64,000 nucleotides of DNA from Chondrosia reniformis. Lineage: Eukaryota > Porifera > Demospongiae > Chondrillida > Chondrillidae. Position 1 is the stretch's first letter, and every line of letters begins with the position of its first letter. The translations under genes were made by a program, and so were the position numbers. Below are positions 10,901 to 54,800 of this stretch, piece by piece. Below the pieces are notes generated by a model. The model had not been told where the DNA came from, made no database searches, and saw only the letters and a list, made by a program, of their open reading frames with translations. The stretch is from the NCBI GenBank assembly GCA_947172415.1, contig OX359191.1, forward strand, positions 7,053,130 to 7,117,129, in the 5' to 3' direction.

Positions 10901-13900
10901 ACTAATATACTCAACATTACAGGGATATCATGGATACATGATTAAAAATGGCCCTTATGACAGGCAAAGTGTAGAGCACTGTTTCCATACTATAAGATAC
11001 ACATACGTAATTATGGATTTCAACATGAAAACAAACATACAAGTGTAACAATGGTGCACTTGTAGTTAATATGTAAATCAGGACCAGTATATCTACTTCA
11101 AATTGTTCACTAGACTATGGGAACAGCATATACTACTAATCATCCAGAATGGAGTGGAATTTATATGTTTACATAATATTGCTGATCATGTGACCTTCCA
11201 TCAAGTCAATAGTGGCACTGGTGCCTTTGAATCAGCACAAGTGTTTAGGTTGGTAGACGTTGTGCTCTACCACCTGTGGTTTAAATATTATGTTATAATC
11301 AATACATTGCTATCAATGCAAATGTGCCACTCAAACTGTAAACCAAACAATCAATATTCCACCCCACACTAACAACAGATCTACTTCAGATAAATGACAA
11401 ATATTGTGCTTTTGAAGCATCCAGTAAAGCAGAGCATTTGAGATTAAAGATTAAGAAAGTCCTTTGCAAAGTCCCATCAGGCTACACCCTTCTGAACTAA
11501 ATAAATAAACTCATATATAGAATTAACAAAAACTAAAAGATGTATTAATTTTTGACTAAGTTCTACAAATGTGTTACCTAATTAAACTATAAAAAATGAT
11601 TTTCTCTTATAAATCATCATATGTGACCTTCCACAGTAAACAGGGTAATCCTGTAAGTTATATAATACGTACAAAGATAATTTACTATAAAGTCCTGAGT
11701 GGCTAGGAAGGCTCATGCTGAATTTGATTTACTCGTAAACGCTAGCTGACATGAAAATGGTTCTCTTAAGGATACAAGAACTACTATATAAGTATAAAAA
11801 GCAGACAGATAGTGATAGGTCACGTGAAATACAATAAAGCATATGAACAAGGGGGAAAATAGGAAGTACAAGTCAATAATACATTGTACCTTAATCTGTA
11901 AAGTGACAAGTTCGTAAAATCAAATAATAGTAAGTTAAGTGTGATACCAATCCAATAGGGTGGTATAGATTCCTGGCATTGAGCCCCTTCCCCTATTGAG
12001 AGGGGCCTGCTCATGTTGGATATGACAGGACTCCAACAGGCAATGGGTCTGTGTGTGTGGAGGTGGGCATCTATCACTTTGGACAAGTCCATCTGGTGAT
12101 GTGAGACAAACACCTGTTCAACAAGTAATGAGGACAACACACCCTCATTCCTGAGTGCTCTCCGATGTTCTCCAAGGCGATGATCTAACGACCTGCCAGT
12201 CTGCCCAATGTAGGATTGTTGACACTCATTGCAAGGTATGCTGTAGATCACCTCTTTCCTTTTTTTTGAAGACAAATCCACAATGGACAAGGACCAACAT
12301 GCATGTAATTAACTCAGTTATCAGTTATCATTTGTTATGTCTCACTCTTCTTTCTTAGTTGTTTTTATAATAAAATATTCTATCAGTGATTATCGTCTAA
12401 TACAGTAGCAATGATAACCTCAAATAAACCTACAAGTTCTAACAAAGTCAATATTAATAATACCCGCACGTTCTATATAAGGATATATGTTATACATACG
12501 TATGTACTAGTGCAAATACTTAACATGTAATCACACTATTCTAGTTCACCATTCCTTATACAATTACCCCAGTTACCTCACTATAGCAATATAAGAGACA
12601 CTAACTCATTTCTTACCTTATTCCTTTCTTCAGGAGAGAACTTCAGTTCTTCAACAATGTGGCTCACCATTGCAGGATTGTCTTGTTTATTTCTACTGGC
12701 ATAGTGAATTATACTGTCTCCATATACATCAACATCATGGAGTTTACCAGCTTCTATGAACTTTGGTAGTAGGAACTTCAGTAAATCCACATTGCCACTA
12801 AAGGCAGACCAGTGTAAGGCATTTCCATCATCCTGGATTAGGAAGCATAAGACAGGAGCTTAAAGGTTTTTGATAAAGAAGTGATAAAGACATTCAGAAA
12901 CACACTATACCATACACTTGCACTTGTACTGTATGTTGTATTTATGCATGTGAGAACATCATACACTGGATACATATATACTCAACATTAGAAGGATTAT
13001 TTCAAGACTATATATATATGTATATATATTTTCCACTGAGTGACACTGTATTAGTTACCCAAAAATTACTTGAACTATAAATATATACAGTTACTTGCAC
13101 TAACACTCATCATCAGAAGGATTACAGAGAGAGAGAGAGTTAATTACACAACTCCAAATGCTAAGTGACCAAAGTCTTATCTTTGTCGGGAGACTGAAGT
13201 TAAATATCATTGAAAGACAACAAATGACTATTAGACAAGTCTATTTAAACGTAGCAGTCACTTTGGCCGTACCCTACTGGTAAGGAAACCTCAATTGTTT
13301 AACTCCAATAGTAATTATTGGCAGGTTTGCTACTCAAAATACATTACATGCTGTACTGATGAGCAAAAGAGAATATAGTCTGCATGCATTTGACTGAGTT
13401 GTGTGGCTTCTCCCTAAGTAACAAATCTGGTATCTACCAACACAAGTTGTATCCCTTAACACTTACCTACACTATATCTCTATACCCAATAAGTATATGT
13501 ATATTATCCAAAACTTACAGTACAACAATACTTACTTGTTATACAGAGAAGTGTCTTACCTTGTTCTTGTGGTACACATTAGCTTTACGTTCCTCTGTCA
13601 GATGTTGTACTACTTGTAACTGACCTTCCCAACAGGCTACCAGTAGAGCTGTGTTACCATACTAAAGTAAGACACAATGCAAATTTAATTAATCAAATTA
13701 ATACAGTCAATTGTTAAGAACTGTATATGTACATAGATACAAATGTAATAGAAATCATTAATAATGATACAATAATTAGTCACTAAACACTACAAATTGA
13801 TTATCATTGTTAATAGCCATAGACAGCTGTTTCCTTATTAGGACTCATCAATATGGCATACAATGGAAGTTTGAGTGCCTAGTCTGCTAATAAGTACTCC

Positions 13901-22699: not shown

Positions 22700-25600
22700 T
22701 CATTCAAACCCTCCTTCAGAAATAAGGTACTTCACTACATCTTTGTGTCCTTCCCTCCTAGCCACTGTCAAGCAGTCCTCTCCAAGTGTATTAACATCAA
22801 ACCTCCTTCTTCCAAATAAGGGCAATAAGTACTTGATAACTTGGAGATGGCCCTTATAACAGGCAAAGTGTAGAGCACTGTATCCATACTACAAGATAAT
22901 CACAATTATGAATATTAACATGAAAACAAACATATACAGTATGTTTTGGGTCGGTTGTCCAGACAGGACTTGCAATCGATAATCAGTAAAAAGGTTATCA
23001 CTGCATGGTTATGTTGTTCTAGTGGGAAAGTTTGTTCAAATGGTAGTCGTGAGTGCTAAACATTTACCAATTTCAATGTCCGGTTGGGACAACCGACCCA
23101 AAAAGTACTGTATAACTATAGATTGGTGCACTTGTAGTTAATATGTAAATCAGGACCAGTATATCTACTTCAAATTGTTCACTAGACTATGGGGACGGCA
23201 TATACTGCTAATCATCTAAAATGGAGTGGAATTTATATGTTTACATAATATTGCTGATCATGTTTATCTATACAGCCAATGGGATGTATCTGAGAAGGTC
23301 ACATGACTGACACTTTTTCTTAGTTAATTCAACCAAATAAGAGTTGGAATAAACAGGTGACCTTCCAATCAAGTCAGTAGTGGCACTGGTGGCATTGAAT
23401 CAGTACAAATGTTTAGGTTGGTAGATGTTGTGCTCTACCACCTGTGGTCTAAATATTATATAACAATCACTACATATGGGTACATTAGGTAGTCAGTACA
23501 TATAGGAAATCATTTTAGCATATCAGTGAGGAGATCTAGCTTAAAGACAGTAGTCATAGAGACAAGCTAGTATAAGAAACTAGTGCTTAGTTGTAAAATT
23601 GTGTGACTGCAAGTTATGCAAGATTATGTACAGTATTAAAAATAGTTATTTCAATTTTGCATCATCTCTCATCATGATGTATAAAGTTCAAATTTTGTTT
23701 CTCCACCAATTCTGGCCTAAATATTACATAAAAATCACTACATTGCTATCAATGCAAATGTGCCTCTTAAACTGTAAACCAATCAAGCAATATTCCACCC
23801 CACACTAACAACAGATCTACTTCAGAGAAATGACAAATATAAATATTAATTTCTATATATGTGCTTTTAAAGCATCCAGCATAAAGAATAGCATATGATG
23901 TATCCCATGATTATTATTGAAATTAAAGATTAAGAAAGTCCTTTACAAAGTCCCATCAGGCTACACCCTTCTGAACTAAATAAATAAACTCATATATAGA
24001 ATTAACAAAAACTAAAGATACATTATGACTAAGTTCTACAAATGTCTGTTACCTAATCAAACTATAATAAATTGATTCTCTCTTATAAATCATGTGTGAC
24101 CTTCCACAGTTAAAAGGGTAATAATAAGTAATAAGTTATAGCGTCAACACAGTGTTCACAATTAATATCTACCAACACAAGTTGAATCACTTAGCTCTTA
24201 ACTTTATACTTAATGACTATGGTACGTATATGTACTATCCAAACACTTGCTACAACAACACTTACTTTTTACACAGGATATCTTACCTTGTTCTTGTGGT
24301 ACACATTAGCTTTACATTCCTCTGTCAGATGTTGTACTACTTGTAATTGACCATATTGACAGGCTAGCAGTAGAGCTGTGTTACCATTCTAAAGTAAGAA
24401 ATATGTAAACTCATTGAAATCAGTTTTAACACTTCAATCATTGAAATTCATACAAGTGCTATACTGCTATATAGTTCACAATTATTATGTTGTTAAACTA
24501 CGTACATATTAACATAAACTACTTACATTTACATTTAACAAAATGTTAAACGTCTAACTACATTACATGATCAGCCATGGCATAACCATAATATCAACTT
24601 TGCTGTACTAACAGACTTATTGCTTATTATACATAGCTTAAATTAATCAACACTTTACAACTATTACATATTAATACTCACATTGCTTTCCTCTTCTAAT
24701 TTGACAAGATGTGTATCAATTAAGCAACTGATGATGGCTTGCTTACCATACATAGCTGCCTTCATTAGAGGAGTCACACCAACCTGTGTACATAAGAAGG
24801 GAAATATTTGAGATTGGAAACTTCTACATACAACAAGTTATAGTTAACATCATTTAATTCCAAAGCCAAACACACATTATTGGTACTATTACAATATACA
24901 CTTTATCAATTAACATTGTTGCAGATCCTTATACACCTCATTGTCCTTCAATGTAATACAATTACTACATACAACTAGTAGGTATGAGTTTCGTATTGTT
25001 ACTATTACAAATACTTAATATGTAATCACACTATTTTAGTTCACCATTCCTTATACAATTACCCCAGTTACCTCACTATAGCAATATAAGAGACACTAAC
25101 TCATTTCTTACCTTTCTCCTTTCTTCAGGAGAGAACTTCAGTTCTTCAACAATGTGGCTCACCATTGCAGGATTGTCTTGTTCATTTCTACTGGCAAAGT
25201 GAATTAGACTGTCTCCATATACATCAACATCATGGAGTTTACCAGCTTCTATGAACTTTGGTAGTAGGAACTTTAGTACATCCACATTGCCACTACAGGC
25301 AGACCAGTGTAAGGCATTTACATCATCCTGGATTAGGAAGCATAAGACAGGAGCTTAAAGGTTTTTGACAAAGAAGTGATAAAGACATTCAGAAACACAC
25401 TATATACTATACACTTGCACTATATCAACTCCTAAACAGTATTTTTTACATGTAAATTAGTGAGACTTTGTGTCCAAACACTGAACACAAATATACTCAA
25501 CATTACAGGGATATCATAGATACTTGATTAACAATGACCCTTATGACAGGCAAAGTGTAGAGCACTGTTTCCATACTACAAGATACATATACGTAATTAT

Positions 25601-28600
25601 GGATTTCAACATGAAAATAAACATACAAGTGTAGCAATGGTACACTTGTAGTTAATATGAAAATTAAGACTAGTATCTACTTCAAATTGTTCACTAGACT
25701 ATGGGGACGGTATATACTGCTAATCATCCAAAATGGAGTGGAATTTATATGTTTACATAATATTGCTGATCATGTGACCTTCCATCAAGTCAATAGTGGC
25801 AATGGTGCTTTGAATCAGCACAAATGTTTAGGTTGGTAGACGTTGTGCTCTACCACCTGTGGTCTAAATATTACATAATAATCAATACATTGCTATCAAT
25901 GCAAATGTGCCACTCAAACTGTAAACCAATCAATCAATATTCCACCCCATACTAACAACAGATCTACTTCAGAGAAATGACAAATATTGTGCTTTTGAAG
26001 CATCCAGTAAAGCAGAGCATTTGAAATTAAAGATTAAGAAAGTCCTTTGCAAAGTCCCATCAGGCTACATCCTTCTGAACTAAATAAATAAACTCATTTA
26101 TAGAATTAACAAAAACTAAAAGATGCAGGAATTTTTGACTAAGTTCTTCAAATGTCTGTTACCTAATCAAATTATAAAAAATAGATTTTCTCTTATAAAT
26201 CATCATATGTGACCTTCCACAGTAAATAGGGTAATAATAAGTAATAAGTTATAAAATTATAAAGATACTTTTGCAGCGTCAACACAATGTTCACAATTAA
26301 TATCTACCAACACAAGTTGAATCGCTTAGCTCTTAACTTTATACTTAATGACTATGGTACGTATATGTACTATCCAACACTTGCTACAACAACACTTACT
26401 TTTTACACAGGATATCTTACCTTGTCTTTATGGTACACATTAGCTTTACGTTCCTCTGTCAGATGTTGTACTACTTGTAACTGACCTTCCTGACAGGCTA
26501 GCAGTAGAGCTGTGCTACCATCCTAAAGTAAGAAATATGTAAACTCATTGAAATCAGTTACAACACTTCAATCATTGAAATTCATACAAGTGACACACAG
26601 ATAGATAGTTCACAATTATCATCTTGTTAAACTACGTACATATTAACATAAACTACATACATTTACATTTAACAAAAATGTTAAACGTCTAACTACATTA
26701 CATGATCAGCCATGGCATAACCATCATATCAACTTTGCATGTACTAACAGACTTATTGCTTATTATACCTAGCTTAAATTAATCAACACTTTACAACTAT
26801 TACATATTAATACTCACATTGCTTTCCTCTTCTAATTTGACAAGATGTGTATCAATTAAGCAACTGATGATGGCTTGCTTACCATTCTTAGCTGCTCTGA
26901 TTAGAGGAGTTGCACCATCCTGTGTACATAAGAAGGGAAATATTTGAGATTGGAAACTTCTACATACAACAAGTTATAGTTAACATCATTTAATTCCAAA
27001 GCCAACTACACATTATTGGTACTATTACAATATACACTTTATTAATTAACATTGTTGCAGATCCTTATACACATCATTGTACTTCAATGTAATACAATTA
27101 GTACATACAACTAGCAGGTATGAGTTTCGTATTGTTACTATTACAAATACTTAATATGTAATCACACTATTTTAGTTCACCATTCCTTATACAATTACCC
27201 CAGTTACCTCACTATAGCAATATAAGAGACACTAACTCATTTCTTACCTTATTCCTTTCTTCAGGAGAGAACTTCAGTTCTTCAACAATGTGACTCACCA
27301 TTGCAGGATTGTCTTGTTTATTTCTACTGGCATAGTGAATTATACTGTCTCCATATACATCAACATCATGGAGTTTACCAGCTTCTATGAACTTTGGTAG
27401 TAGGAACTTCATTAAATCCACATTGCCACTAAAGGCAGACCAGTGTAAGGCATTTCCATCATCCTGGATTAGGAAGCATAAGACAGAAGCTTAAAGGTTT
27501 TTGACAAAAAATGAGTTAGACATTCAGAAACATACTATAACATACACTTACACTTGTATTGTATGTTGTATTTATGCATGTGAGAACACTATACACTGGA
27601 TACATATATACTCAACATTAGAAGGATATCATGGATTATTTCATGACTATATATATATTTTCCACTTAGTGACACTGCATTAGTTACCCAAAAATTAGTC
27701 GAACTATACATATATACATTTACATGCACTAACACTCATCATGAGAAGGATTACAGATAGAGAGTTAATTACACAACTCCAAATGCTAAGTGACCAAAGT
27801 CTTATCTTTGTCGGGAGACTGAAGTTAAATATCATTGAAAGACAACAATGACTATTAGACAAGTCTATTTTAACGTAGCAGTCACTTTGGCTGTACTCTA
27901 CTGGTAAGGAAACCTCAATTGTTTTAACTGCAATAGTAATTATTGGCAGGTTTGCTACTCAAAATCCATTACATGCTTTACTGATGAGCAAAACAGAATA
28001 TAGTCTGCATGCATTCGACTGAGTTGTGTGGCTCAACCTTCTCCCTAAGTAACAAATCTGGTATCTACCAACACAAGTTGTATCCCTTAACACTTACCTA
28101 CACTATATCTCTATACCCAATAAGTATATGTATACTATTCAAACACTTACAGTACAACAATACTTACTTGTTATACAGAGAAGTGTCTTACCTTGTTCTT
28201 GTGGTACACATTAGCTTTACGTTCCTCTGTCAGATGTTGTACTACTTGTAACTGACCTTCCAGACAGGCTACCAGTAGAGCTGTGTTACCATACTAAAGT
28301 AAGACACAATGCAAATTAAATTAATCAAATTAATAGAGTCAAACAGTCAATTCTTAAGAACTGTATATGTACATAGATACAAATGTAATAGAAATCATTA
28401 ATAATGATACAATAATTAGTCACTAAACACTACAAATTGATTATCATTGTTAATAGCCATAGACAGCTGTTTCCTTATTAGGACTCATCAGTATGGCATA
28501 CAATGGAAGTTTGAGTGGCTAGTCTGCTAATAAGTACTCTCAAAAGCAAAAAAAGCTTGTGGTTTCCTTATCAGCAGATAAGGTGGCTAGGGGGAGACTC

Positions 28601-31600
28601 TGGTTCCCATCAAGCGAAATTTGCTCATTGCGCTCCTCAGGGGACATGAGTGGGTAGGGGTGATAATGATGCTTTAGGATCGACATTAGATCTTAAAGTT
28701 CCCCTAATATTTTTCCCTATGGTTTAATTGTTAGTGACTCCTGATCAGGTATATGCTTTAAACTTGCACTCTTTTCTCATTATATGCACTTTCAATATAT
28801 AATTCATTTTATAATCTATACCATGTCAGAATTTATGAAGATATTTCAATTAATAATATATTCAAATTATCTATAATCCATAGTGTTTACAAGTTTCCAA
28901 TATTTTTACAAAACAACCTATGAGTTATTTATTGTACTACGTATATTGGTTAAACTTATATACGTACAAAACATATGGCTAAAGAGTAAAAATTAATATT
29001 ATTTCCATGTGTACTTTATGTAGCACAATACACTCACTGCATTTTCTTCTTCCACATTATGCCCTGCATCCAACAAGAGCTTCAAGACCTCCAAATCTCT
29101 ACTTCTACCAGCTTGTAGCAAAGACTATTAGTTTGGGGATCAAGTAAAGAATGATATTTTATTTGAATCATGAAATGAATGTAGATTATACATAATATAA
29201 GTCTTATATACAATATGTATGTATGCATGTACACAAATACAGTCATGGCTGTTTAGTATGGCCTTTGATAATCCAGTTCCCTCGATATCAGGCTGACTTT
29301 TCAGGGAAACGGGTCTTAATAGTATAATTTTGTACATGTGAAACCAGCCCTTAGTTTACCTTTTGTATATCTACGTACGTATAATATTATGAAGTTGACA
29401 AGTTAATCTAATGAATGTTAGCCGACCTACTGCCAAACGATTTTGGTCTGCAAAGTATGCTGATTAAGTATGTGCACTGGAAATGTACCAGTCAGTGATA
29501 AAATATTACTTTTAAATTAGTGTGTCTTTTGTATTAGGAAAGAGCGCTTTGTTAGTTTATTCATACAATAATCTTACAATCATGGTTATGTCATAGTGTC
29601 AGGGGTGACATTTTATAGACTTTCTTAATCCAGCAGCCTCCTTAATCCAGCAATGTTTGGAGAAACCAATGCAGTCGGCTTGAACAGTCATGACTGTATT
29701 ACATATAATCAATCAATCAATCACACACACGGTGATCTGATACTTTAACAAATGCACACTTTCAATTCCTTATATGGTCAATATTTATTGTAATGGATGG
29801 GAATGGAATAAGAACTGTACATCTGTAAAACTTACTCCTTTCTTCTTCTTTCTGGACAGAGATCCTTCCTTCTTTGTAGCATAGTCCCAAAGTTCTTTCG
29901 ACTGTAAAAGTAGCTTTCCAAACTTGTTTGAGATAATTTCATAGTTAACTGTCACAACTTTAATCACAGCATCACAAGTATATGTCTCCTTCAGTTCCTA
30001 GAAGAGGTGGAAAAGAAATTAAAATATTCTGCTAGCTGAACAGAAAGCCTAAATGTACAGTTTTAGAAATGCATTTGTCACATGTTGGTATGTATGTATG
30101 TATGCCAAGGATTCACAGAAGATCAAGATAAAGAAAAAGACAAAGACTCCCAGGATCACTGATGAAGGGTGGAATTACCAGAAACGGCTGTCTGACCCAG
30201 TGGAGAAGAAGACGAAAGAAGGGAAAGAAGGAAAACAAGTATTTCGAATTTAAAAACTCGTGGGGCTGCCGCCCCCCGAATTAACTCGAACTACTTGGCC
30301 GTATCGTTGGCATTTAATATATATATTCGTAATACTAACGATTGAGGACGCTTAAGTGTCCTGAACATTATAAATAGCGACAGAAAAGCTTCGTTAACTA
30401 AAGCTTCCTAAACGCCGCCATTTGCAAAACGATGTATTGATGTATAAATTAAGTATTATAAAGTATTATAATAGTTGCGTATATATGAACCTGTATTAAA
30501 TATATATCGACGTATAAATAAAGTGTTATAATAGTTGCGTATCAACCCGTATTATATATATAGATATATACAGTGCAAGTTACAATATACTAAGGTAATC
30601 TAATATAATATAAATAAATAATTAAATAAATAAATAATATAATATAATTAATTAATTCATATGGCTCCAAGAAAGAACCTAAAAACAAAATGGGCATATC
30701 ATCATAAAGTTTAGGGTATAAAACTCATTTTAAATTAAGGGATTTTTGATTTAGGCCTCCGTTTGTTAGAAAACAGAGGACAAAGTCTGCATATAAAAGG
30801 CCATAGGACTATAGAAAACATATGGGAAATTTATATTGAAACAATGTGTTATATTAATAAAAATTATCAATTTGTCATATAACTGTGAAATCAACATATA
30901 TCATGGTACATGTGTATAAGAAATGTCTGGCGAAGTTTTGCTTAATTAAATGAGCAAAATAATCAAGATATAATGAAGAATTCAAAGTTACGATTGCGCA
31001 AGCTGGTGATGTATTGTGATGTTCTTCTATTGCGTCACCAACACCTTCGTATGTCGCTCGGTACACACATTTTGAGAATCTTGTGATGTTGCGAAAACGT
31101 CACCGCCTCGTTGCTAAAGAAGATCATCCTTTCGAGAATGGCTATGACAAGTCGACGCTCTCCTACGAGAAGGAGCTACCGAATAAGAGAGTTGTAGCGA
31201 AGGTTAGATAAAGCGTATTTGTATACGTTCATGCTAAGTTTAAGCCAAAAGTGTTGCTATATATATTGATGTAAAGAAATAAAAGAAATTCGTTTAGACG
31301 ACCATAGTAAAACTGTGGTACTTTAAGCTCCGTCATCTATATATATATATATATCTTTCCGTAACATGAAGCCATACAACGTAATCGGCAAATGAAAACA
31401 ATATAAGGGGCTGCCTGCGGCAGCCCCTAAAAAGACTCCTGTATCTTCATCCAAAGTTCTCTTCAGGTTTAGTTCCCCATAGGCTCTTTTACAGAATAGG
31501 CATAGCATGTAGGAAAATGGTATCTTAGATTTTTCATGCATAAACACATTATTTCTACTACCTCAATACTGCCTTCTTCTGACTTAAGACTTTTCTTCAG

Positions 31601-39863: not shown

Positions 39864-42800
39864 TCATTCAAACCCTCCTTCAGAGATAAGGTACTTCACT
39901 ACATCTTTGTGTCCTTCCCTCCTAGCCACTGTCAAGCAGTCCTCTCCAAGTGTATTAACATCAAACTTCCTTCTTCCAAATAAGGGCAATAAGTACTTGA
40001 TAACTTGGAGATGGCCATTAAGACAGGCAAAGTGTAGAGCATTGTTTCCATACTACAAGATAATCACAATTATGAATATAAACATGAAAACAAACATATA
40101 CAGTATGCTTGGGTCGGTTGTCCAGACAGAACGTTGCAATCGATAATCAGTAAAAGGTTATCGCTGCATGGTCATGTCATTCTGTGGGAAAGTATAAGTA
40201 GAGATATGTTGCACTTGTAGTTAATATGTAAATCAGGACCAGTATATCTACTTCAAATTGTTCACTAGACTATGGGGACGGCATATACTGCTAATCATCC
40301 AAAATGAAGTGGAATTTATATGTTTACATAATATTGCTGATCATGTTTATCTATACAGCCAATGGGATGTATCTGAGAAGGTCGCATGACTGACACTTTT
40401 TCTTAGTTAATTCAGCCAAATAAGAGTTGGAATAAACAGGTGACCTTCCAATCAAGTCAATAGTGGCACTGGTGCCTTTGAATTAGTACAAATGTTTAAG
40501 TCGGTAGACATTGTGCTCTTCCACTTGTGGTCTAAATATTACATAATAATCATAATCACTACATACGGGTGAATGAGGTATTCAGTACCTATATACGTAT
40601 ATATCTATAGGAAATCATTTTAGCATATCAGTGAGGAGATCTAACTAAAAGACAGTAGTCATAGAGACAAGCTAGTATGAGAAACTAGTTTGCTTAGTTG
40701 TAAAATTGTGTTATTGTGTCTTATAAATCATGTGACCTTCCACAGTAAACAGGGTAATAATAAGTAATAAGTTATAAAATTATAAAGATTTTGCAGCGTC
40801 AACACAATGTTGTGACTGCAAGTTATGCAAGATTATGTACAGTATTAAAAATACTTATTTCAATTTTGCATCATCTCTCATCATGATGTATAAAGTTCAA
40901 ATTTTGTTTCTCCACCAATTCTGGCCTAAATATTACATAATAATCAATACATTGCTATCAATGCAAATGTGCCTCACAAACTGTAAACCAAACAAGCAAT
41001 ATTCCACCCCACACTAACAACAGTTCTACTTTAGAGAAATTACAAATATAAATATTAATTTCTATATATGTGCTTTTGAAGCATCCAGCATAAAGAATAG
41101 CATATGATGTATCCCATGATTAATATTGAAATTAAAGTCCTTTGCAAAGCCCCATCAGGCTACACCCATCTGAACTAAATAAATAAACTCATATATAGAA
41201 TTAACAAAAACTAAAGATACATTTTGACTAAGTTCTACAAATGTCTGTTACCTAATCAAACTATAATAAATTGATTCTCTCTTATAAATCATATGTGACC
41301 TTCCACAGTAAACAGGGTAATAATAAGTAATAAGTTATAAAATTATAAAGATACTTTTGCAGCGTCAACACAATGTTCACAATTAATATCTACCAACACA
41401 AGTTGAATCGCTTAGCTCTTAACTTTATACTTAATGACTATGGTACGTATATGTACTATCCAACACTTGCTACAACAACACTTACTTTTTACACAGGATA
41501 TCTAACCTTGCTTTTGTGGTACACATTAGCTTTACCTTCCTCTGTCAGATGTTGAACTACTTGTAATTGACCTTCCTGACAGGCTAGCAGTAGAGCTGTC
41601 TTACCATTCTAAATTAAGAAATATGTAAACTCATTGAAATCAGTTTTAACACTTCAATCATTGAAATTCATACAAATGCTATACTGCTATATAGTTCACA
41701 ATTATCATGTTGTTAAACTACGTACCTATTAACATAAACTACTTACATTTACATTTAACAAAATGTTAAACATCTAACTACATTACATGATCAGCCATGG
41801 CATAACCATAATATAATAGAGTTTCGTAATGTTACTATTACAAATACTTAATATGTAATCACACTACTGTAGTTCACCATTCTTTATACAATTACTCCAG
41901 TTACCTCACTATAACAATATAAGAGACACTAACTCATTTCTTACCTTATTCCTTTCTTCAGAAGAGAACTTCAGTTCTTCAACAATGTGGCTCACCATTG
42001 CAGGATTGTCTTGTTTATTTCTACTGGCATAGTGAATTATACTGTCTCCATATACATCAACATCATGGAGTTTACCAGCTTCTATGAACTTTGGTAGTAG
42101 GAACTTCAGTAAATCCACATTGCCACTAATGGCAGACCAGTGTAAGGCATTTATATCATACTGGATTAGGAAGCATAAGACAGAAGCTTAAAGGTTTTTG
42201 ATAAAGAAGTGATATAGACATTCAGAAACATATACTATATACTATACACTTGCACTATATCAACTCCTAAATAGTATTTTTTACATGTACGGTACGCGTC
42301 AAAAGTAAGGCTTATACTCGCGAGTTTCGAGTGCGAGTGCCTCGACGAGGCGAGTGCTAACGAGTGGCATTTATCTCGAGAGTTTAGCGAGGGCCAAATC
42401 GAGTGCGCACGACAGGCCCTGAAAGCGATAATGATGTGAATACGTAGGTGTCAGATTTTTTAATCACCATTCGAGAATCGAGTGAACGAAACGAGTGAAC
42501 GAAACGAGTGAACGAAACGAGTGAACGAAACGAGTGAACGAAACGAGTATCAAGTAATGGCAACCAGAAAGGAAAATTGGATATCAATCAAATGGATCGG
42601 GGGAAGATGTGATGGCATCGGTTACGACATCAACAAAAGGAACGTCAACACTAAGCCGCCATTCAAAATAGGGCAGATAGTTGAACTTAAGAAGCTCAAA
42701 GGAGCACGTCCTGGCCAAAAAGGAGAGATTATCAGAGCAGAAAAATCGTTATTAGAAGGCAAGTGCACCAAACGAAAAGTATCAGAACGTACCGAAAATG

Positions 42801-45800
42801 AAAATGATGTAGCGAACAAAGGAAAGCCGAAACAATTAAAAAGAAAGGGAAAGGATATTCCGGTTAGTTTGATATTTTAATTGAACTTGCGCAAAAATCG
42901 TAAATTCATACGTACGTATATATACGCATCCATTTTTAACAATGCAGAAATTTTTGAGTATTGCTACTGGCTGGAAACCTACTGTTGAATCAGAGTGCAC
43001 AGAGTCTAAAGAACTTAGTAGTGGAAGCGACATCATATCTGAAGAAGACTTTGATAAATTCTTGAATGAAGAAGAAGGAATGCAGGAAGGTCATGATGAC
43101 ATGGTTACTGAATTTATATCTGAAGAAATCCCACAAGATACATCAGATGATCATGAATGTGTGCCTACTCACCATTTGAGGGACATCACCAATTATGACC
43201 CATCTTCCAAGAAGGCAATTGAAAGTAATCAGTCACTACTTTCATCTCACAATACCAGTACAAATTTGGATATTGAGAAGACTACAGACATAATTATGGA
43301 TTATGTTCATGAAGAGCTACACGAGATTAAAGAGAGCTTCCATGCTCAACTTGAGGAACAACAGTCTACCTTCCAGAAAGCCATTCAGGAACTGCAGCAA
43401 AGAATTGGTTCTTTGGAGGAGAAATTAAACAAAGGAGCTAAAACTGACTCCATCTTGGAAACATCCATATCGAGGGCTGACAAGAGTCTTTCTGAATTCG
43501 ACGTCTTGAATACGTCTTCCATGTTTGCCGACGAAGATGTTTTATTAGCTATGACACACATACAGCCCAGGCCAACAAGGTGTAGACTGGCAAGAGAACT
43601 TATTAAAGCCAAGTTACCGACCCATCTAAGAGGGGTATCAAATTGTAATGGAAGTCAAGGAAAGCGGCCAATTGACTTTGGGCTACTACAGGCAGTAGAG
43701 AAGAAATGCTTTGCATATTTCCCCCTCACTCAAGTAGAGAATTATGCTTCAGCATGGCAAAGCTGCAAAGATTCAATTAACGAGTGGTGCCGGCGAATAA
43801 ATCGTTACAATAGGCTAGGTGGTAACAGCCAGACAGTAGCATGACTTACTATACTCTGACATATTTATATATTTTGGACATATTATACATATACGTATGA
43901 CATACGTATATGACACTGTATTATTCAGTATATATTTATATTTTTATTCTAAAAATGTTTAATATACAAGAGAAAATGACTGTATTATTAATTTAGTTAC
44001 ATTAAATAAATTATATATTATATAATACATAAAACCAAAAAATGTTAAGATATATGTACGTATGAACTATTCACCAGTTGGTCCTCCTTCACAGTCGATT
44101 ACCTTAGGAATAACCTTGTGCAAGTGGTTAATATATCTTGTACACAGATCTGGCGTCATCTTCTCTGCCCAGAATCTTTCAATGCCTTGCACTAGCTCTG
44201 CTTGAGTCAGTGGCTTAACTTTTCGGCAGAGAAACCTCTTCAGTTGAGCCCATACCTTCTCAATGGGATTTAGGTCTGGGCTTTCTGCAGGTGTTCTCCA
44301 CCAGTTAATCCCTGTCTTCCTCATCATTTCAGCTGCTTTCTTAGATGTATGCTTAGGATCATTGTCCTGTTGAAATCGTTCGATGTTAGGATGATCCCTT
44401 AAAAATGGTAATAATGCAGACTCCAGGATTTCTATATAAAAGTCAGCATCCATATTTCCAGTAAAGATTACTATGTTGGTTGGCCCTTCCATTGATATCC
44501 CGGCCCAAATGTGAACTTTCAAGGGATGCTTTGGTTTTGGCTTAAGCGGACGAGGCATATCTTTCTTATACCTGCACTTTGAGTAATACCTTGCCAGTTG
44601 TACCGTACTTTCATCCGTAAATACCACATCATGAAAATTGTCTCCTGTACCTAAAAGTTGTTTGCAAAATTCCAGTCTCTTTTCTTTGTTTTTCTGTCTA
44701 ATCATCTGACAGTATCTTGGTTTCGAGCAGATCCAATTTAGTTTTTCTTTTACTGCCCTTTGAATTGTTGGTCTCCTAATAAATTGTCCACTTTCTTTCC
44801 ACAATAGCTTTTGTAAATCAGTTGTAGATAGTTCATCATCTCTAAGAAGCCACTGATCTATCATTTTCTTCTGATCATCCTTTAACAACTCAGGTCTTCC
44901 ACTCCTTTTCGCATCTTCTAAGGTTTTGGTCTGTCGATACTTCTTAAGCAATCGATATATCGCCGAAATCGATACCTCAATTGATTCTTTAGCCAATTCT
45001 TTCCTGATTCGGCCATAAGAATAGGTATATTCGGTCGCAAGGACTACGACACGTTGTCTAGCATAAAGAGATAGTCTTGGCATAGCGGCGTCACTTCTCA
45101 AATCTCGAATTTCTCACCTAAAAACGTGTTGCTTTTAGCACTCAAAGCAAACGTATTTCCCCAATGATATTAGATCGAGGTGTAGTCGAGTGATGCTCGA
45201 GATTATTCGAGTAGATCGAGGTGTAGTCGAGTGATGCTCGAGATTTATTCGAGTAGATCGAGGTGTAGTCGAGTGATGCTCGAGATTATTCGAGTAATTT
45301 GCCCTCATTTCTCGAAATCGTCAACTAAACGTGTCGATTTACATCACTCGGTAATAGTCAATTTACCCCTCGATGGGCACCTTTCGAGATCGAGAATTTG
45401 TCGAGTGATCCTTCGAGGTTATCACTCGCCTTGTCGAGGCACTCGCACTCGAATCTCGCGAGTATAAGCCTTACTTTTGACGCGTACCGTAAATTAGTGA
45501 GAATTTGTGTCCAAACACTGGACACTAATATACTCAACATTACAGGGATATCATGAATACTTGATTAACAATGGCCCTTATGACAGGCAAAGTGTAGAGC
45601 ACTGTTTCCATACTACAAGATACACATACGTAATTATGGATTTCAACATGAAAACAAACATACAAGTGTAGCAATGGTACACTTGTAGTTAATATGTAAA
45701 TCAGGACCAGTATATCTACTTCAAATTGTTCACTAGACTATGGGGACGGCATATACTGCTAATCATCCAAAATGGAGTGGAATTTATATGTTTAGATAAT

Positions 45801-48800
45801 ATTGCTGATCATGTGACCTTCCATCAAGTCAATAGTGGCACTGGTGCCTTTGAATCAGCACAAATGTTTAGGTTGGTAGACATTGTGCTCTTCCACCTGT
45901 GGTCTAAATATTACATAATAATCAATACATTGCTATCAATGCAAATGTGCCACTCAAACTGTAAACCAAACAAGCAATATTCCACTCCACACTAACAACA
46001 AATCTACTACAGAGAAATGACAAATATTGTGCTTTTGAAGCATCCGTAAAGCAGAGCATTTAAAATTAAAGATTAAGAAAGTCCTTTGCAAAGTCCCATC
46101 AGGCTACACCCTTCTGAACTAAATAAATAAACTCATATATAGAATTAACAAAAACTAAAAGATGCAGTAATTTTTGACTAAGTTCTACAAATGTGTTACC
46201 TAATCAAACTATAAAAATTGATTTTCTCTTATAAATCATATGTGACCTTCCACAGTAAACAGGTTAATAATAAGTAATAAGTTATAAATTATAAAGATAC
46301 TTTTGCAGCGTCAACACAATGTTCACAATTAATATCTACCAACACAAGTTGAATCACTTAGCTCTTAACTTTATACTTAAGGACTATGGTACGTATATGT
46401 ACTATCCAACACTGATTACAACAACACTTACTTTTTACACAGGATATCTTACCTTGTCCTTGTGGTACACATTAGCTTTATGTTCCTCTGTCAGATGTTG
46501 TACTACTTGTAACTGACCTTCCTGACAGGCTAGCAGTAGAGCTGTGGTACCATTCTAAAGTAAGAAATATGTAAACTCATTGAAATCAGTTACAACACTG
46601 CAATCACTGTACTTCAGACAAGTGACACAGATAGATAGTTCACAATTATCATGTTGTTAAACTACTTACATATTAACATAAACTACTTACATTTACATTT
46701 AACAAAAATGTTAAACGTCTAACTACATTACATGATCAACCATGGCTTAACCATCATATCAACTTTGCATGTACTAACAGACTTATTGCTTATTATACCT
46801 AGCTTAAATTAATCAACACTTTACAACTATTACATATTAATACTCACATTGCTTTCCTCTTCTAATTTGACATGATGTGTATCAATTAAGCAACTGATGA
46901 TGGCTTGTTTACCATACTTAGCTGCTATTATCAGAGGAGTCACACCTTCCTGCGTACATAAGAAGGGAAACATTTGAGATTGGAAACTTCTACATACAAC
47001 AAGTTATAGTTAACATCATTTAATTCCAAAGCCAAACACACATTATTGGTACTATTACAATATACACTTTATTAATTAACATTGTTGCAGATCCTTATAC
47101 ACATCATTGTACTATAATGTAATACAATTAGTACATACAACTAGTAGGTATGAGTTTCGTATTGTTACTATTACAAATACTTAATATGTAATCACACTAT
47201 TTTAGTTCACCATTCCTTATACAATTACCCCAGTTACCTCACTATAGCAATATAAGAGACACTAACTCATTTCTTACCTTAACCCTTTCTTCAGGAGAGA
47301 ACTTCAGTTCTTCAATAATGTGGCTCACCATTGCAGGATTGTCTTGTTCATTTCTGCTAGCATAGTGAAGTAGACTGTCTCGATATACATCAACATCATG
47401 GAGTTTACCAGCTTCTATGAACTTTGGTAGTAGGAACTTCAGTAAATCCACATTGCCACTAAAGGCAGACAAGTGTAAGGCATTTAAATCACCCTGGATT
47501 AGGAAGCATAAGACAGGAGTGTAAAGGTTATTGACAAAGAAGTTATATAGACATTCAGCAACATAATATATATACTATACACTTGCACTATATCAACTCC
47601 TAAACAGTATTTTTTACATGTAAATTAGTGAGAATTTGTGTCCAAACACTGGACACTAATATACTCAACATTACAGGGATATCATGGATACTTGATTAAC
47701 AATGGCCCTTATGACAGGCAAAGTGTAGAGCACTGTTTCCATACTACAAGATACACATACGTAATTATGGATTTCAACATGAAAACAAACATACAAGTGT
47801 AGCATTGGTACACTTGTAGTTAATATGTAAATCAGGACCAGTATATCTACTTCAAATTGTTCACTAGACTATGGGGACGGCATATACTGCTAATCATCCA
47901 AAATGGAGTAGAATTTACATGTTTTCATAATATTGCTGATCATGTGACCTTCCATCAAGTCAATAGTGGCACTGGTGCCTTTGAATCAGCACAAGTGTTT
48001 AGGTTGGTAGACGTTGTGCTCTACCACCTGTGGTCTAAATATTACATAATAATCACTACATTGCTATCAATGCAAATGTGCCACTCAAACTGTAAACCAA
48101 TCAATCAATATTCCACTCCACACTAACAACAGATCTACTTCAGAAAAATGACAAATATTGTGCTTTTGAAGCATCCAGTAAAGCAGAGCATTTAAAATTA
48201 AAGATTAAGAAAGTCCTTTGCAAAGTCCCATCAGGCTATATCCTTCTGAACTAAATAAATAAACTCATATATAGAATTAACAAAAACTAAAAGATGCATT
48301 AATATTTGACTAAGTTCTACAAATGTGTTACCTAATTAAACCATAAAAAATGATTTTCTCTTATAAATCATCATATGTGACCTTCCACAGTAAACAGGGT
48401 AATCCTGTAAGTTATATAATACGTACAAAGATACTTTACTATAAAGTCCTGAGTGGCTAGGAAGGCTCATGCTGAATTTAATTTACTCGTAAACGCTAGC
48501 TGACATGAAAATGGTTCTCTTAAGGATACAAGCACTACTGTATAAGTACACAAAGCAGACAGATAGTGATAGGTCACGTGAGATACAATAAAGCATGAAC
48601 AAGGGGAAAAATAGGAAGTACAAGTCAACAATACATTGTACCCTAATCCGTAAAGTGACAAGTTGGTAAAATCAAATAATAGTAAGTTAGGTGTGATACC
48701 AGTCCAATAGGGTGGTATAGATTCCTGGCATTGAGCCCCTTCCCCTATTGAGAGGGGCCTGCTCATGTTGGATATGACAGGACTCCAACAAGCAATGGGT

Positions 48801-51800
48801 CTGTGTGTGTGGAGGTGGGCATCTATCACTTTGGACAAGTCCATCTGGTGATGTGAGACAAACACCTGTTCAACAAGTAATGAGGACAACACACCCTCAT
48901 TCCTGAGTGCTCTCCGATGTTCTCCAAGGCGATGATCTAACGACCTGCCAGTCTGCCCTATGTAGGATTGTTGACCCTCATTGCAAGGTATGCTGTAGAT
49001 CACCTCTTTCCTTTTTCCCTCTGGAACAGGGTCCTTCGGATTGACCAGCTCTTGCCTCAGAGTTTGGAAGGGACGGAGGGTGACATTGATGGCCAGGGTG
49101 TCAGTATCTGCAAATGGACTGTGATAGCCCATGGATATAAGGGATGGTCACTGATGCCCGTGCTGTCCGTTCCTCAGCATGGCTGTTGTATCTCACGTGA
49201 CCTATCACTATCTGTTTGCCTTTTGTACTTATAAAGTAGAAGAAGGCAGCCATAGGTTGGTGAAATGTCTAAGAGAACCATTTTCATGTCGGCTAGCGTT
49301 TACAAGTAAATCGAATTCAGAAAGATACTTTTGCAGCGTCAACATAGTTCACAATTAATATCTACTAACATAAGTTGAATAGCTAAACTCTTACCTATAC
49401 TATCTCTTTATACCTAATGACTATATATGGTATATGTACTATCCAACACTGACTTGTTATACAGAGAAGTGTCTTACCTTGTTCTTGTGGTACATATTAG
49501 CTTTACGTTCCTCTGTCAGATGTTGTACTACTTGTAACTGACCATAATGACAGGCTACCAGTAGAGCTGTGCTACCATTCTAAAGTAAGAAATATTTAAA
49601 CTCATTGAAATCAGTTTTAACACTTCAATCATTGAAATTCATACAAGTGCTATACTGATATATAGTTCACAATATTATGTTGTTAAAACATAAAGTACTT
49701 AAATTTATATATAAAATGTTAAAAGTCACAAGTAACTACATTACATGATCAGCCATGGCCCTCACTTGTTGGATATCTTTCAAGTGCTACATACAAACTA
49801 GTATATCATCACTAGTTGATATTTCTATGATATGTTACACCAACTAACAGTGTCAACCAGATACCATATCAACTTCACATGTACTAGTAAGATTCATTGG
49901 CAGTTATTTAATGTATAGCTTTAATAAATACAAATATTACATATTAATACTCACATTGCTTTCCTCTTCTAATTTGACATGATGTCTATCAATTAAGCAC
50001 ATGATGATGGCTTGTTTACCATACATAGCTGCCTTCATTAGAGGAGTTACACCATCCTGTGTACATAAGAAGGGAAATATTTGAGATTGGAAACTTCTAC
50101 ATACAACAAGTTATAGTTAACATCATTTAATTCCAAAGCCAAACACACATTCATTTATTGTTTACAATATATACTTTATTGATATAAACATTGTTACAGA
50201 TCCTTATACACATCATTGTACTTCTAAAATTATAACTAGTACATACAAATAGTACATACGTACAACTAGTACATACCAATAGTACATACAACTAGTAGTT
50301 ATATATGAGTTTCGTAGCATTAAGAGATGATTGGTATGTAAAGACTTGAAAAGAAATTTAAAACATATAATCTTTTACAGTATGTCTACCCCTCCCTCCC
50401 ACCTTTAACTCAAAATAATGAAGTGTCAAAGTATGATTTAACAATTATAACTTCAGAAATGTCAGGGACTGGAATAATGACAAATGAGAAAATAGAGGAT
50501 CTCTTTGTCAACTTGGATGAAGACAAATCCACAATGGACAAGGACCAACATGAAATTAACTTAGTTATCATTTGTTGTGTCTCACTCTTCTTTCTTAGTT
50601 GTTTTTATAATAAAATATTCTATCAGTGATTATCATCTAATACAGTAGCAATGATAACCTCAAATAAACCTACAAGTTCTAACAAAGTCAAGATTAATAT
50701 CCACACATACTATGAGTATACTAATTTGTCCTATTTTAAGGATATATGTTATACATACGTATGTACTAGTGGATATAGCAAATACTTAATATGTAATCAC
50801 ACTATTTTAATTCACAATTCCTTATACAATTACCCCAGTTACCTCACTATAGCAATATAAGAGACACTAACTCATTTCTTACCTTACTCCTTTCTTCAGG
50901 AGAGAACTTCAGTTCTTTAACAATGTGGCTCACCATCGCAGGATTGTCTTGTTTATTTCTACTGGCAAAGTGAATTATACTGTCTCCATATATATCAACA
51001 TCATGGAGTTTACCAGCTTCTATGAACTTTGGTAGTAGGAACTTCAGTAAATCCATATTGCCACTAAAGGCAGACCAGTGTAAGGCATTTCCATCAACCT
51101 GGATTAGGAAGCATAAGACAGAAGCTTAAAGGTTTTTGATAAAGAAATGATATAGACATTTAGAAACACACTATACCATACACTTGCACTTGTACTGTAT
51201 GTTGTATGTATGTGCATGCAACATTGAGAGCATATACTGGATACAAATATGTATACTCAACATTAGAAGGATATCATGCATTATTTCATGACTATATTTT
51301 CCACTTAGTGACACTGCATTAGTTACCCAAAATTACTTGAACTATAAATATATACAGTTACATGCACTAACACTCATCATGAGAAGGATTACAGATAGAG
51401 AGTTAATTACACAACTCCAAATGCTAAGTGACCAAAGTCTTATCTTTGTCGGGAGACTGAAGTTAAATATCATTGAAAGACAACAAATGACTATTAGACA
51501 AGTCTATTTTAACGTAGCAGTCACTTTAATGGTACTCGACTGGTAAGGAAACCTCAATTGTTTAACTGCAATAGTAATTATTGGCAGGTTTGCTACTCAA
51601 AATACATTACATGCTGTACTGATGAGCAAAAACAGAATATAGTCTGCATGCATTCGACTGAGTTGTGTAGCTCAACCTTCTCCCTAAGTGACAAATCTGG
51701 TATCTACCAACACAAGTTGTATCCTTTAACACTTACCTACACTATACCTCTATACCCAATAAGTATATTATCTAAACACTTACAGTACAACAATACTTAC

Positions 51801-54800
51801 TTATTATACAGAGAAGTGTCTTACCTTGTTCTTGTGGTACACATTAGCTTTACCTTCCTCTGTCAGATGTTGTACTACTTGTAACTGACCTTCCTGACAG
51901 GCTAGCAGTAGAGCTGTGTTACCTCTCTAAAGTAAGACACAATGCAAATTAAATTAATCAAATTAATAGAGTCAAACAGTCAATTCTTAAGAACTGTATA
52001 TGTACATAGATAAAAATGTACATAGATACAAATGTAATAGAAATCATTAATAATGATACAATAATTAGTCACTAAACACTACAAATTGATTATCATTGTT
52101 AATAGCCATAGACAGCTGTTTCCTTATTAGGACTCATCAGTATGGCATACAATGGAAGTTTGAGTGGCTAGTCTGCTAATAAGTACTCCCAAAAGCAAAA
52201 AAAGCTTGTGGTTTCCTTATCAGCAGATAAGGTGGCTAGGGGGAGACTCTGGTTCCCATCAAGCGAAATTTGCTCATTGCGCTCCTCAGGGGACATGAGT
52301 GGGTAGGAGTGATAATGATGCTTTAGGATCGACATTAGATCTTAAAGTTCTCCTAATATTTTTCCCATGGTTTAATTGTTAGTGACTCCTGATCAGGTAA
52401 ATGCTTTAAACTTGCAGTCTTTTCTCATTATATGCACTTTCAGTATATAATTCATTTTATAATCTATACCATGTCAGAATTTATGAAGATATTTCAATTA
52501 ATAATATATTCAAATTATCTATATAATCCATAGTGTTTACAAGTTTCAAATATTTTTACAAAACAACCTATGAGTTATTTATTGTACTATATTGGTTAAA
52601 CTTATATATGTACAATAAATATGGCTAAAGAGTAGAAATTAATATATTTCCATGTGTACTTTATGCAGTACAATACACTCACTACATCTTCTTCTTCCCC
52701 ATTATGCCCTGCATCCAACAAGAGCTTCAAGACCTCCAAATCTCCACTTCTACCAGCTTGTAGCAAAGACTATTAGTTTGGGGATCAAGTAAAGAATGAT
52801 ATTTTATTTGAATCATGAAATGAATGTAGATTATACATAATATAAGTCTTATATACAATATGTATGTATGCATATGAATGTACACAAATACAGTCATGGC
52901 TGTTTAGTATGGCCTTTGATAATCCAGTTCCCTCGATATCAGGCTGTCTTTTCAGGGAAACGGGTCTTTAATAGCATAATTTTGTACGTGTGAAACCAGC
53001 CCTTAGTTTACCTTTTGTATATCTACATATACGAAATTGACAAGTTAATCTAATGAATGTTAGCCGACCTATATACTGCCAAACGATTTCGGTCTGCAAA
53101 GTATGTTGATTTAGTATGTGCACTGGAAATGTACTAGTCAGTGATAAAGTATTACTTTTAAATTAGTGTGTACTAAGAAAGAGCGCTTTGTTAGTTTATT
53201 TATACAATAATCTTACAATCATGGTTATGTCATAGTGTCAGGGGTGACATTTTATAGACTTTCTTAATCCAGCAGCCTCCTTAATCCAGCAATGTTTGGA
53301 GAAACAAATGCAGTCGGCTTGAAAAGTCATGACTGTATTACATATAATCAATCAATCAATCACACACACGGTGATCTGATACTTTAACAAATGCACACTT
53401 TCAATTCCTTATATGGTCAATATTTATTGTAATGGATGGGAATGGAATAAGAACTGTACATCTGCAAAACTTACTCCTTTCTTCTGCTTTCTGGACAGAG
53501 ATCCTTCCTTCTTTGTAGCATAGTCCCAAAGTTCCTTCGACTGTAAAAGTAGCTTTCCAAACTTGTTTGAGACAATTTCAGAGTTAACTGTCACAGCTTT
53601 AATCACAGCATCACAAGTATATGTCTCCTTCAGTTCCTAGAAGAGGTGGAAAAGAAATTAAAATATTCTGCTAGCTGAACAGAAAGCCTAAATGTACAGT
53701 TTTAGAAATGCATTTGTCACATGTTGGTATGTATGTATGTATGCCAAGGATTCACAGAAGATCAAGATAAAGAAAAAGACAAAGACTCCCAGGATCACCG
53801 ATGAAGGCTGGAATTACCAGAAACGGCTGTCTGACCCAGTGGAGAAGAAGACGAAAGAAGGGAAAAGAAGGAAGAAAAGACTCCTGTATCTTCATCCAAA
53901 GTTCTCTTCAGGTTTAGTTCCCCATAGGCTCTTTTACAGAATAGGCATAGCATGTAGGAAAATGGTATCTTAGATTTTTCATGCATAAACACATTATTTT
54001 TACTACCTCAATACTGCCGTCTTCTGACTTAAGACTTTTCTTCAGATTAACCAAATCAGCCAAATCTGCTAAATCTTCCGATTCACTCAAACTTTTCATT
54101 TTCTCTTCCACTTCAGATAAAATGGCTGCCTTGGGTTCAATTTGCAGCTGGTATTTATAGAACTTGTCTTTTATCAAAGAAACCTTTCAAGTAAAGATAT
54201 GTATGTTAAGTTAATTCATAAATTACAAATTAGCATTCCAAATATTACATAAATCATTCAGTTATTATTCACATAGGTAACAGAAGAGTGGCAGTGGTCA
54301 CCATAGCAACTAGGTATAAGCTATATAATGTTTACATGCACATGCAACACTATATAAATAAGTATCAGGTTGTATATATACTATATCCACAGACCCAAAG
54401 AATACAATTTGTACATCGTGTAGTCACTACTTACAACATCCTGCTCTGATAAAGTTTGCTTTTCTTCCTCTTTCTCACGACTAGATTTCTCTTCAAGTTG
54501 CCTCTTCAGTGACTCCACCTTCTCAACCAAGTCTACATCCACCAGCTGCAAACAGACACAGACAGGTTAATACTTACATTGGTGAAGAATACAATCATTT
54601 AGTGTGAGTGTGCTACTGTCAATCTCACTTCTTCCAACTGCTTCACTTCTCCTCTACATTTCAACAACTCTTCCCTTGTTCTCTTCAACTCATTCTGTGA
54701 CTGACTCAGTTCTTCTTCTTTGGCTCTCAGTTTAGTCTTTAGAGCATGAAGCTCCACCATTGTCATGTGGTGCATTCCCTCCATACTCTTCATCTCTGCC

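Follow-up and report, generated by a model that had tools for sequence, protein, structure and literature searches.

Tc1/mariner elements, from which the Sleeping Beauty tools derive, are the textbook example of transposons with a single gene. Tc1 elements are described as having a single open reading frame (ORF) and a mean length of ~1300 bp, ciliate TBE/Tec elements have several ORFs (PMC7325037), and in Harbinger elements the ORF1 protein binds the element ends and is required for the nuclear location of the transposase (PMC2836001). Here, we describe an element of 3200 bp at positions 42290-45489 of a 64,000-nucleotide stretch, the window, from the kidney sponge Chondrosia reniformis, in which a Tc1-type transposase gene is accompanied by a second gene encoding a protein with a BEN domain. 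The element is real and represents a new two-protein version of the Tc1 kind, for which the element itself, the domain, and the long partnership of the two genes are well supported. Elsewhere, BEN domains are known chiefly from regulators of animal genes; here, one is found beside the cut-and-paste enzyme of a sponge jumping-gene family. A second DNA-binding protein kept over long divergence suggests that Tc1/mariner can also act as a two-protein system, and what the partner adds, be it end binding, regulation, or a role in chromatin, now becomes a question.

The element resembles the Tc1 family in its TA target, its ends starting with TAC[AG]GTA, its DD34E domain, its N-terminal helix-turn-helix (HTH), and its short gene-less copies, and it carries the features of the Tc1/mariner superfamily, namely precise insertion with TA duplication, terminal inverted repeats, a DDE_3 domain of the DD34E type, and an HTH at the N-terminus. 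In contrast to Tc1 proper, with one ORF in ~1.3 kb (~1300 bp in PMC7325037), it spans 3.2 kb and has two genes. PIF/Harbinger elements are alike in encoding two proteins, the second of which binds DNA (PMC2836001), but they have another type of transposase and a Myb-like partner, whereas the best Pfam matches of the sponge transposase are DDE_3 and HTH_32 and the partner domain is BEN; moreover, the Harbinger transposase is described without an obvious binding domain, whereas the sponge transposase has HTH matches. The ciliate TBE/Tec elements share a DD34E transposase of the Tc1/mariner type and more than one ORF (PMC7325037, PMC4724952). However, what accompanies the ciliate transposases is a zinc finger/kinase protein together with a 22-kD ORF, or else a site-specific recombinase, and those sources describe none of these as BEN; no zinc finger/kinase or recombinase domain was found in Pfam scans of the accessory proteins of the sponge lineage. 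The animal BEN factors BANP, BEND3, NACC1, and Insv share the BEN fold, and the CTCGCGAG core in the element ends is as in the BANP site, but these factors are host genes, whereas the sponge BEN gene is part of a transposon. No paper describing a BEN gene in a Tc1 element was found in the literature searched, outside of which lay most subscription journals, Repbase, and Dfam. The features of the window element are as follows.

42288-42289, no strand: left TA target-site copy; three paralogous empty sites have one TA in this position
42290-42361, plus strand: left terminal inverted repeat, from the 77-nt arms, with the motif CTCGCGAG at 42317-42324
42475-42548, plus strand: left subterminal tandem repeat, direct repeats of the 13-nt unit CGAGTGAACGAAA
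42557-42862, plus strand: accessory gene exon 1 with a small, putatively beta-rich N-terminal domain (A2 alignment, ten sequences; low-confidence model)
42863-42947, plus strand: predicted intron GTTAGT...AATGCAG, 85 nt, GT..AG
42948-43844 with stop (coding to 43841), plus strand: accessory gene exon 2, encoding the coiled coil and, at the C-terminus, the BEN domain (~43524-43817 according to the A1 profile), from profile and model
44067-45083 with stop (coding 44070-45083), minus strand: DD34E Tc1-type transposase, 338 aa, from Pfam, alignment, and the SB100X match
45171-45296, no strand: right subterminal tandem repeat, three copies of a 41-42-nt unit rich in TCGAG/CTCGAG, from repeat search and sequence
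45418-45489, minus strand: right terminal inverted repeat, from the 77-nt arms, with CTCGCGAG at 45455-45462 in the context TCTCGCGAGT
45490-45491, no strand: right TA target-site copy, from the same empty sites

The source genome comprises 117,379,552 bases in 15 contigs, with the window on contig C3, and was published as 117.37 Mb in 14 chromosomes and a mitochondrial genome (PMC12181767). The flank of the window element is a duplicated region, and three other flank copies, at 10471-11268 (96%), 47223-48022 (95.5%), and 25057-25851 (95%) in the alignment to the joined flanks, lack the insertion. There is direct proof of insertion at TA, because all three empty sites cross the junction with one TA, and the intact TA-flanked element of the preliminary description was thus borne out. 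The inverted ends, given there as 35 bases, are actually arms of 77 nt each (42285-42361 and 45418-45494) that are 95% complementary; four further family elements have inverted ends of 25-42 nt without mismatch, counted from the tip. The complete DD34E transposase was likewise recovered, with a reading frame open over 338 aa, DDE_3 (E value 1.8e-18, 67.3 bits against a cut-off of 28.6) and HTH_32 (2e-9, 38.3 bits against 33.7) above their Pfam cut-offs, and HTH_Tnp_Tc3_2 (20.3 bits against 31.5) below. D157, D240, and E275, with the 34 residues between the last two that define DD34E, are invariant in an alignment of 17 transposases including that of the window. A match to Sleeping Beauty SB100X (3.4e-20) is what would place the window element in Tc1. 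The transposase profile retrieved 2255 relatives at an E value of 1e-10 or better from a large protein set. Nine distant transposase-like loci (L058-L066) were found in prokaryote contigs, and no transposase relative in viral contigs.

The second gene runs convergent to the transposase gene, and its two exons (42557-42862 and 42948-43841) yield a protein of 400 aa after the predicted splice, in accordance with the spliced, convergent 400-codon gene read earlier. The splice is supported because an intronless protein of the same kind, encoded by locus L013 and 99% identical to the public protein P0001, aligns across the junction; given this identity, P0001 probably comes from the same species as the window. 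It was the only accessory homologue returned from the large protein set by a search that needs shared exact words and scored top candidates only. The structure model of P0001, whose mean confidence is low (57.9; mostly 75-88 in the BEN part), predicts one long helix at residues 150-209, which agrees with the coiled coil proposed for the accessory protein. The N-terminal domain, in which W13, G20, and G39 are invariant in the A2 alignment, shows a weak resemblance to SH3/Tudor-like domains; its models are poor and of low confidence.

The identification of the C-terminal domain as BEN had rested on pattern recognition. The window protein alone does not establish it, matching Pfam BEN (PF10523) at 12.4 bits (E value 0.19), below the cut-off of 23.2, and BEND3 in PDB at 0.46, but the siblings L025 and L031 exceed the Pfam cut-off. 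The nine-row A1 profile, which includes the window protein and L029, matches BEND3 at 4.5e-11 and BANP at 2.1e-5, and the first 14 rows of a fold comparison on the model of a relative are all BEN. The assignment predicted from the profile with relatives, and from the fold of a relative, is therefore firm.

Whether both genes travel together in other copies, as the preliminary description asked, was assessed across the genome. At least 126 transposase matches were counted (a lower bound, with 119 of 337 candidates scored), of which 43 extend over at least 300 codons and were examined, and 83 are shorter and were compared by coordinates only. Other copies and distant relatives do carry the second gene: BEN is clear beside 40 of the 43 long matches, marginal beside one (L055, E value 0.027), and absent from the locus ORFs of the two decayed loci L051 and L053. 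Genome-wide BEN searches placed a match within 3 kb of 24 of the 43, and the other 19 loci were read singly. Among these, BEN was found by the A1 profile at L028, L029, L037, L039, L040, and L041; at L038 the N-terminal exon is present, and BEN is matched just beyond the locus (C6:3615109); and nine of the twelve loci L046-L057 have BEN at E values up to 3e-4, within a small ORF set. A second full copy on C5 has both genes open, with 98% and 99% protein identity, and twelve two-gene elements of 2.6 to 3.8 kb are enclosed by both ends, one gene being broken in some copies (the window element, the C5 copy, L012, L013, L033, L034, L035, L036, L040, L046, L047, and the BEN-marginal L055). Conversely, 18 of the 20 Pfam BEN matches over the cut-off in the genome have a family transposase no more than 3 kb away, for which random placement gives a mean of 0.12 and at most 2 in 2000 trials. 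With identical BEN searches, a match within 3 kb accompanies 25 of the 43 long family matches and 33 of the 83 shorter ones, but none of 36 DDE_3 matches outside the family list.

The two genes also agree in their history. In maximum-likelihood trees of the transposase (20 elements and an outgroup) and of BEN (19), three supported groups are common to both, namely the window pair, a clade with divergent genes (L027, L032-L035, and L038 where present), and an MVYS clade (L028, L029, L037, and L039-L041); L024-L026, L030, L031, and L036 form no single supported group in both trees, and the deep branching is not firm. A single change accounts for the divergent gene arrangement on both trees, with 100% and 98% of 200 bootstrap trees in agreement. 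Transposase and BEN distances are strongly correlated (Mantel r 0.944, n=18; 0.921 with near-copies removed, n=13), with none of 20,000 permutations reaching these values. For BEN, the ratio of nonsynonymous to synonymous substitution (dN/dS) is low in two old pairs (0.10 and 0.13), where synonymous sites are near saturation; in other pairs they are past it. It is well supported that the family is a large, old two-gene lineage in this genome, with long co-inheritance of both genes. The single element first described is real, and the phenomenon is wider than was claimed for it. Neither of the two outcomes named beforehand as refuting the claim, a lack of any BEN profile match and copies that never contain the second gene, was observed.

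Short copies of the window family also occur. L002, L003, and L005-L008 have ~0.6-0.8 kb between ends that are the same as those of the window element, resembling miniature inverted-repeat transposable elements, and probably moved in trans; L002 retains a piece of the transposase start.

The ends of several elements contain short palindromic motifs (offset 0 being the T of the TA). The motif CTCGCGAG occurs twice in the window, against an expectation of 0.02, both times in the element ends at offset 29. L017 and L020 keep it at the same offset though their ends otherwise differ, and it is followed there by ATTT, giving AAATCTCGCGAG on the reverse strand. Genome-wide, 28 of 43 sites of ACTCGCGAGAT are in family ends (26 in matches from a genome search, in addition to the L017 and L020 ends). 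Other palindromes lie near the same place in L012 (CTCGATCGAG), L035 (ACGGAATTCCGT), L027 (TCCGCGGA), and L038 (GCAGATCTGC), and palindromes of at least 8 nt at offset 18-48 are present in 9 of 16 first ends, compared to 1.9 expected, with none of 2000 shuffles as high. The BEN protein BANP binds TCTCGCGAGA in chromatin immunoprecipitation data, its best array 8-mer being AAATCTCG (PMC10206803), and the right-end context TCTCGCGAGT agrees with the BANP site at 9 of 10 positions. A host BANP-type promoter is not favoured as the cause of CTCGCGAG, the decamer TCTCGCGAGA being at 6 genome places compared to 18 for the reversed control.

The accessory BEN protein could tentatively be regarded as an element-encoded DNA-binding partner that helps the transposase at the ends, within an old two-protein lineage of the Tc1 type; this reading falls somewhat short of an even chance, and end binding would nevertheless be the likeliest of several functions that the sequences suggest. 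In such a mechanism, the transposase would cut the element ends and insert at TA, while the accessory protein would oligomerise via its coiled coil, bind short sites in the ends of its own element through BEN (CTCGCGAG in the window family), and aid the assembly of the transposase there, by analogy with the Myb-like partner of Harbinger elements. BEN would thus bind the end motif, contact the transposase, and assist transposition, and the end palindromes could be where an oligomeric partner attaches to the ends, with a specificity that varies between lineages. For BANP, oligomerisation, by the coiled coil among other parts, matters for the choice of unmethylated DNA (PMC11472053). The earlier suggestion that the protein is a further DNA-binding subunit or a regulator is compatible with the evidence, as a role proposed from sequence.

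Several observations weigh against an end-binding partner. Tc1 transposases with their own HTH domains normally do without a partner, and all data come from one genome. The end palindrome is absent in 7 of the 16 first ends (L013, L033, L036, L037, L040, L047, and L055). Related ends are not independent, and a stricter set gives 6 of 13 compared to 1.6 expected (1 of 2000 shuffles as high), or 5 of 12 compared to 1.5 expected when L038 is removed (11 of 1500 shuffles). The offset range 18-48 and the BANP parallel were picked after looking at the data, and our confidence was lowered from an even balance to slightly below it. The comparison with DDE_3 matches outside the family is a weak control, only 6 of the 36 spanning 400 bases or more, and at least one of the 36, L074, proved to belong to the family in decayed form (54-73% to L029), without BEN. 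Nine control loci of other Tc1-like matches (L042-L045 and L070-L074) had no BEN at an E value of 0.1, which is likewise weak because most are decayed, a stray N-terminal exon accompanied by a family end is present at L042, and L074 is of the family itself. Finally, most young copy pairs, which differ by few changes, have dN/dS values close to 1 or higher in both genes, as expected of copies once inserted.

The same palindromes could instead serve transcription. If the inverted ends double as promoters of the convergent genes, the BEN protein might be a regulator, either a brake or activator or a shield against chromatin silencing, which is a less likely alternative. BEN proteins are mostly chromatin or transcription factors (PMC11472053, PMC10206803), the convergent window element has end sites upstream of each gene, and the divergent L033 and L034, whose genes start mid-element, have no end palindrome. 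However, L027, L035, and L038 of the same divergent clade retain the end palindrome with no gene starting there (one end seen in L027 and L038), and the gene-less L002, L003, and L005-L008 keep the site at both ends, as expected for movement, although all look young. The many ends without a palindrome would also suit a protein that protects or guides the element without binding its ends, by anti-silencing or by chromatin targeting through the N-terminal domain. That domain recurs across the lineage, and in L027 it has a weak Tudor-knot match (E value 0.081, under the cut-off), but its models are poor and a chromatin ligand is without positive support, so we consider this improbable. The weak BEN match of the window protein on its own might be taken to indicate that a single element captured a host BEN gene by chance, or that two unrelated genes adjoin. 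Such a chance neighbour or one-off capture is refuted by the genome-wide association (40 of 43) and the agreement of distances, together with the second full copy on C5 and the twelve end-to-end two-gene elements, and its probability is negligible.

The lineage may connect the BEN family of chromatin factors to transposons. L069 (C3:8964306-8965631) is an open gene present as a single copy; it encodes 442-454 aa, and no family ends were found around it within 5 kb. A profile of the transposase HTH matches its residues 16-74 (26.9 bits, compared to 5.5 for the best of 200 shuffles) and its C-terminal half holds BEN (59.3 bits by profile); Pfam alone gives weak BEN and HTH matches only, the BEN match at C3:8964531 being below the cut-off. 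Judged from these profiles, L069 may have arisen by domestication of a fusion between the transposase HTH and the BEN partner, and if this is true, transposase and BEN partner work on the same DNA. Because L069 looks like such a fusion and 18 of the 20 Pfam BEN matches lie beside family transposases, two-gene BEN transposons might form a lineage that is old in animals and has been one origin of their BEN regulators, although we hold this to be quite unlikely.

A few further loci deserve mention. At L017 (C12:2277291-2280767), two different accessory genes are represented by their N-terminal exons, one on each strand, apparently from two overlapping or nested elements, and L054 contains, at 4217-5091, a short copy with window-family ends close to another family member. 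At L067 (C5:2078000-2083000), a BEN-type gene without a nearby family transposase adjoins a reverse-transcriptase-like ORF, as read from the translation, and might be an accessory gene that belongs to a more distant element. The window itself (1-64000) is a patchwork of 1-3 kb segments that have duplicates of 90-96% identity, such as 27144-30233 and its counterpart 50779-53873, and the duplicated segments hold repeated ORF families in their copies.

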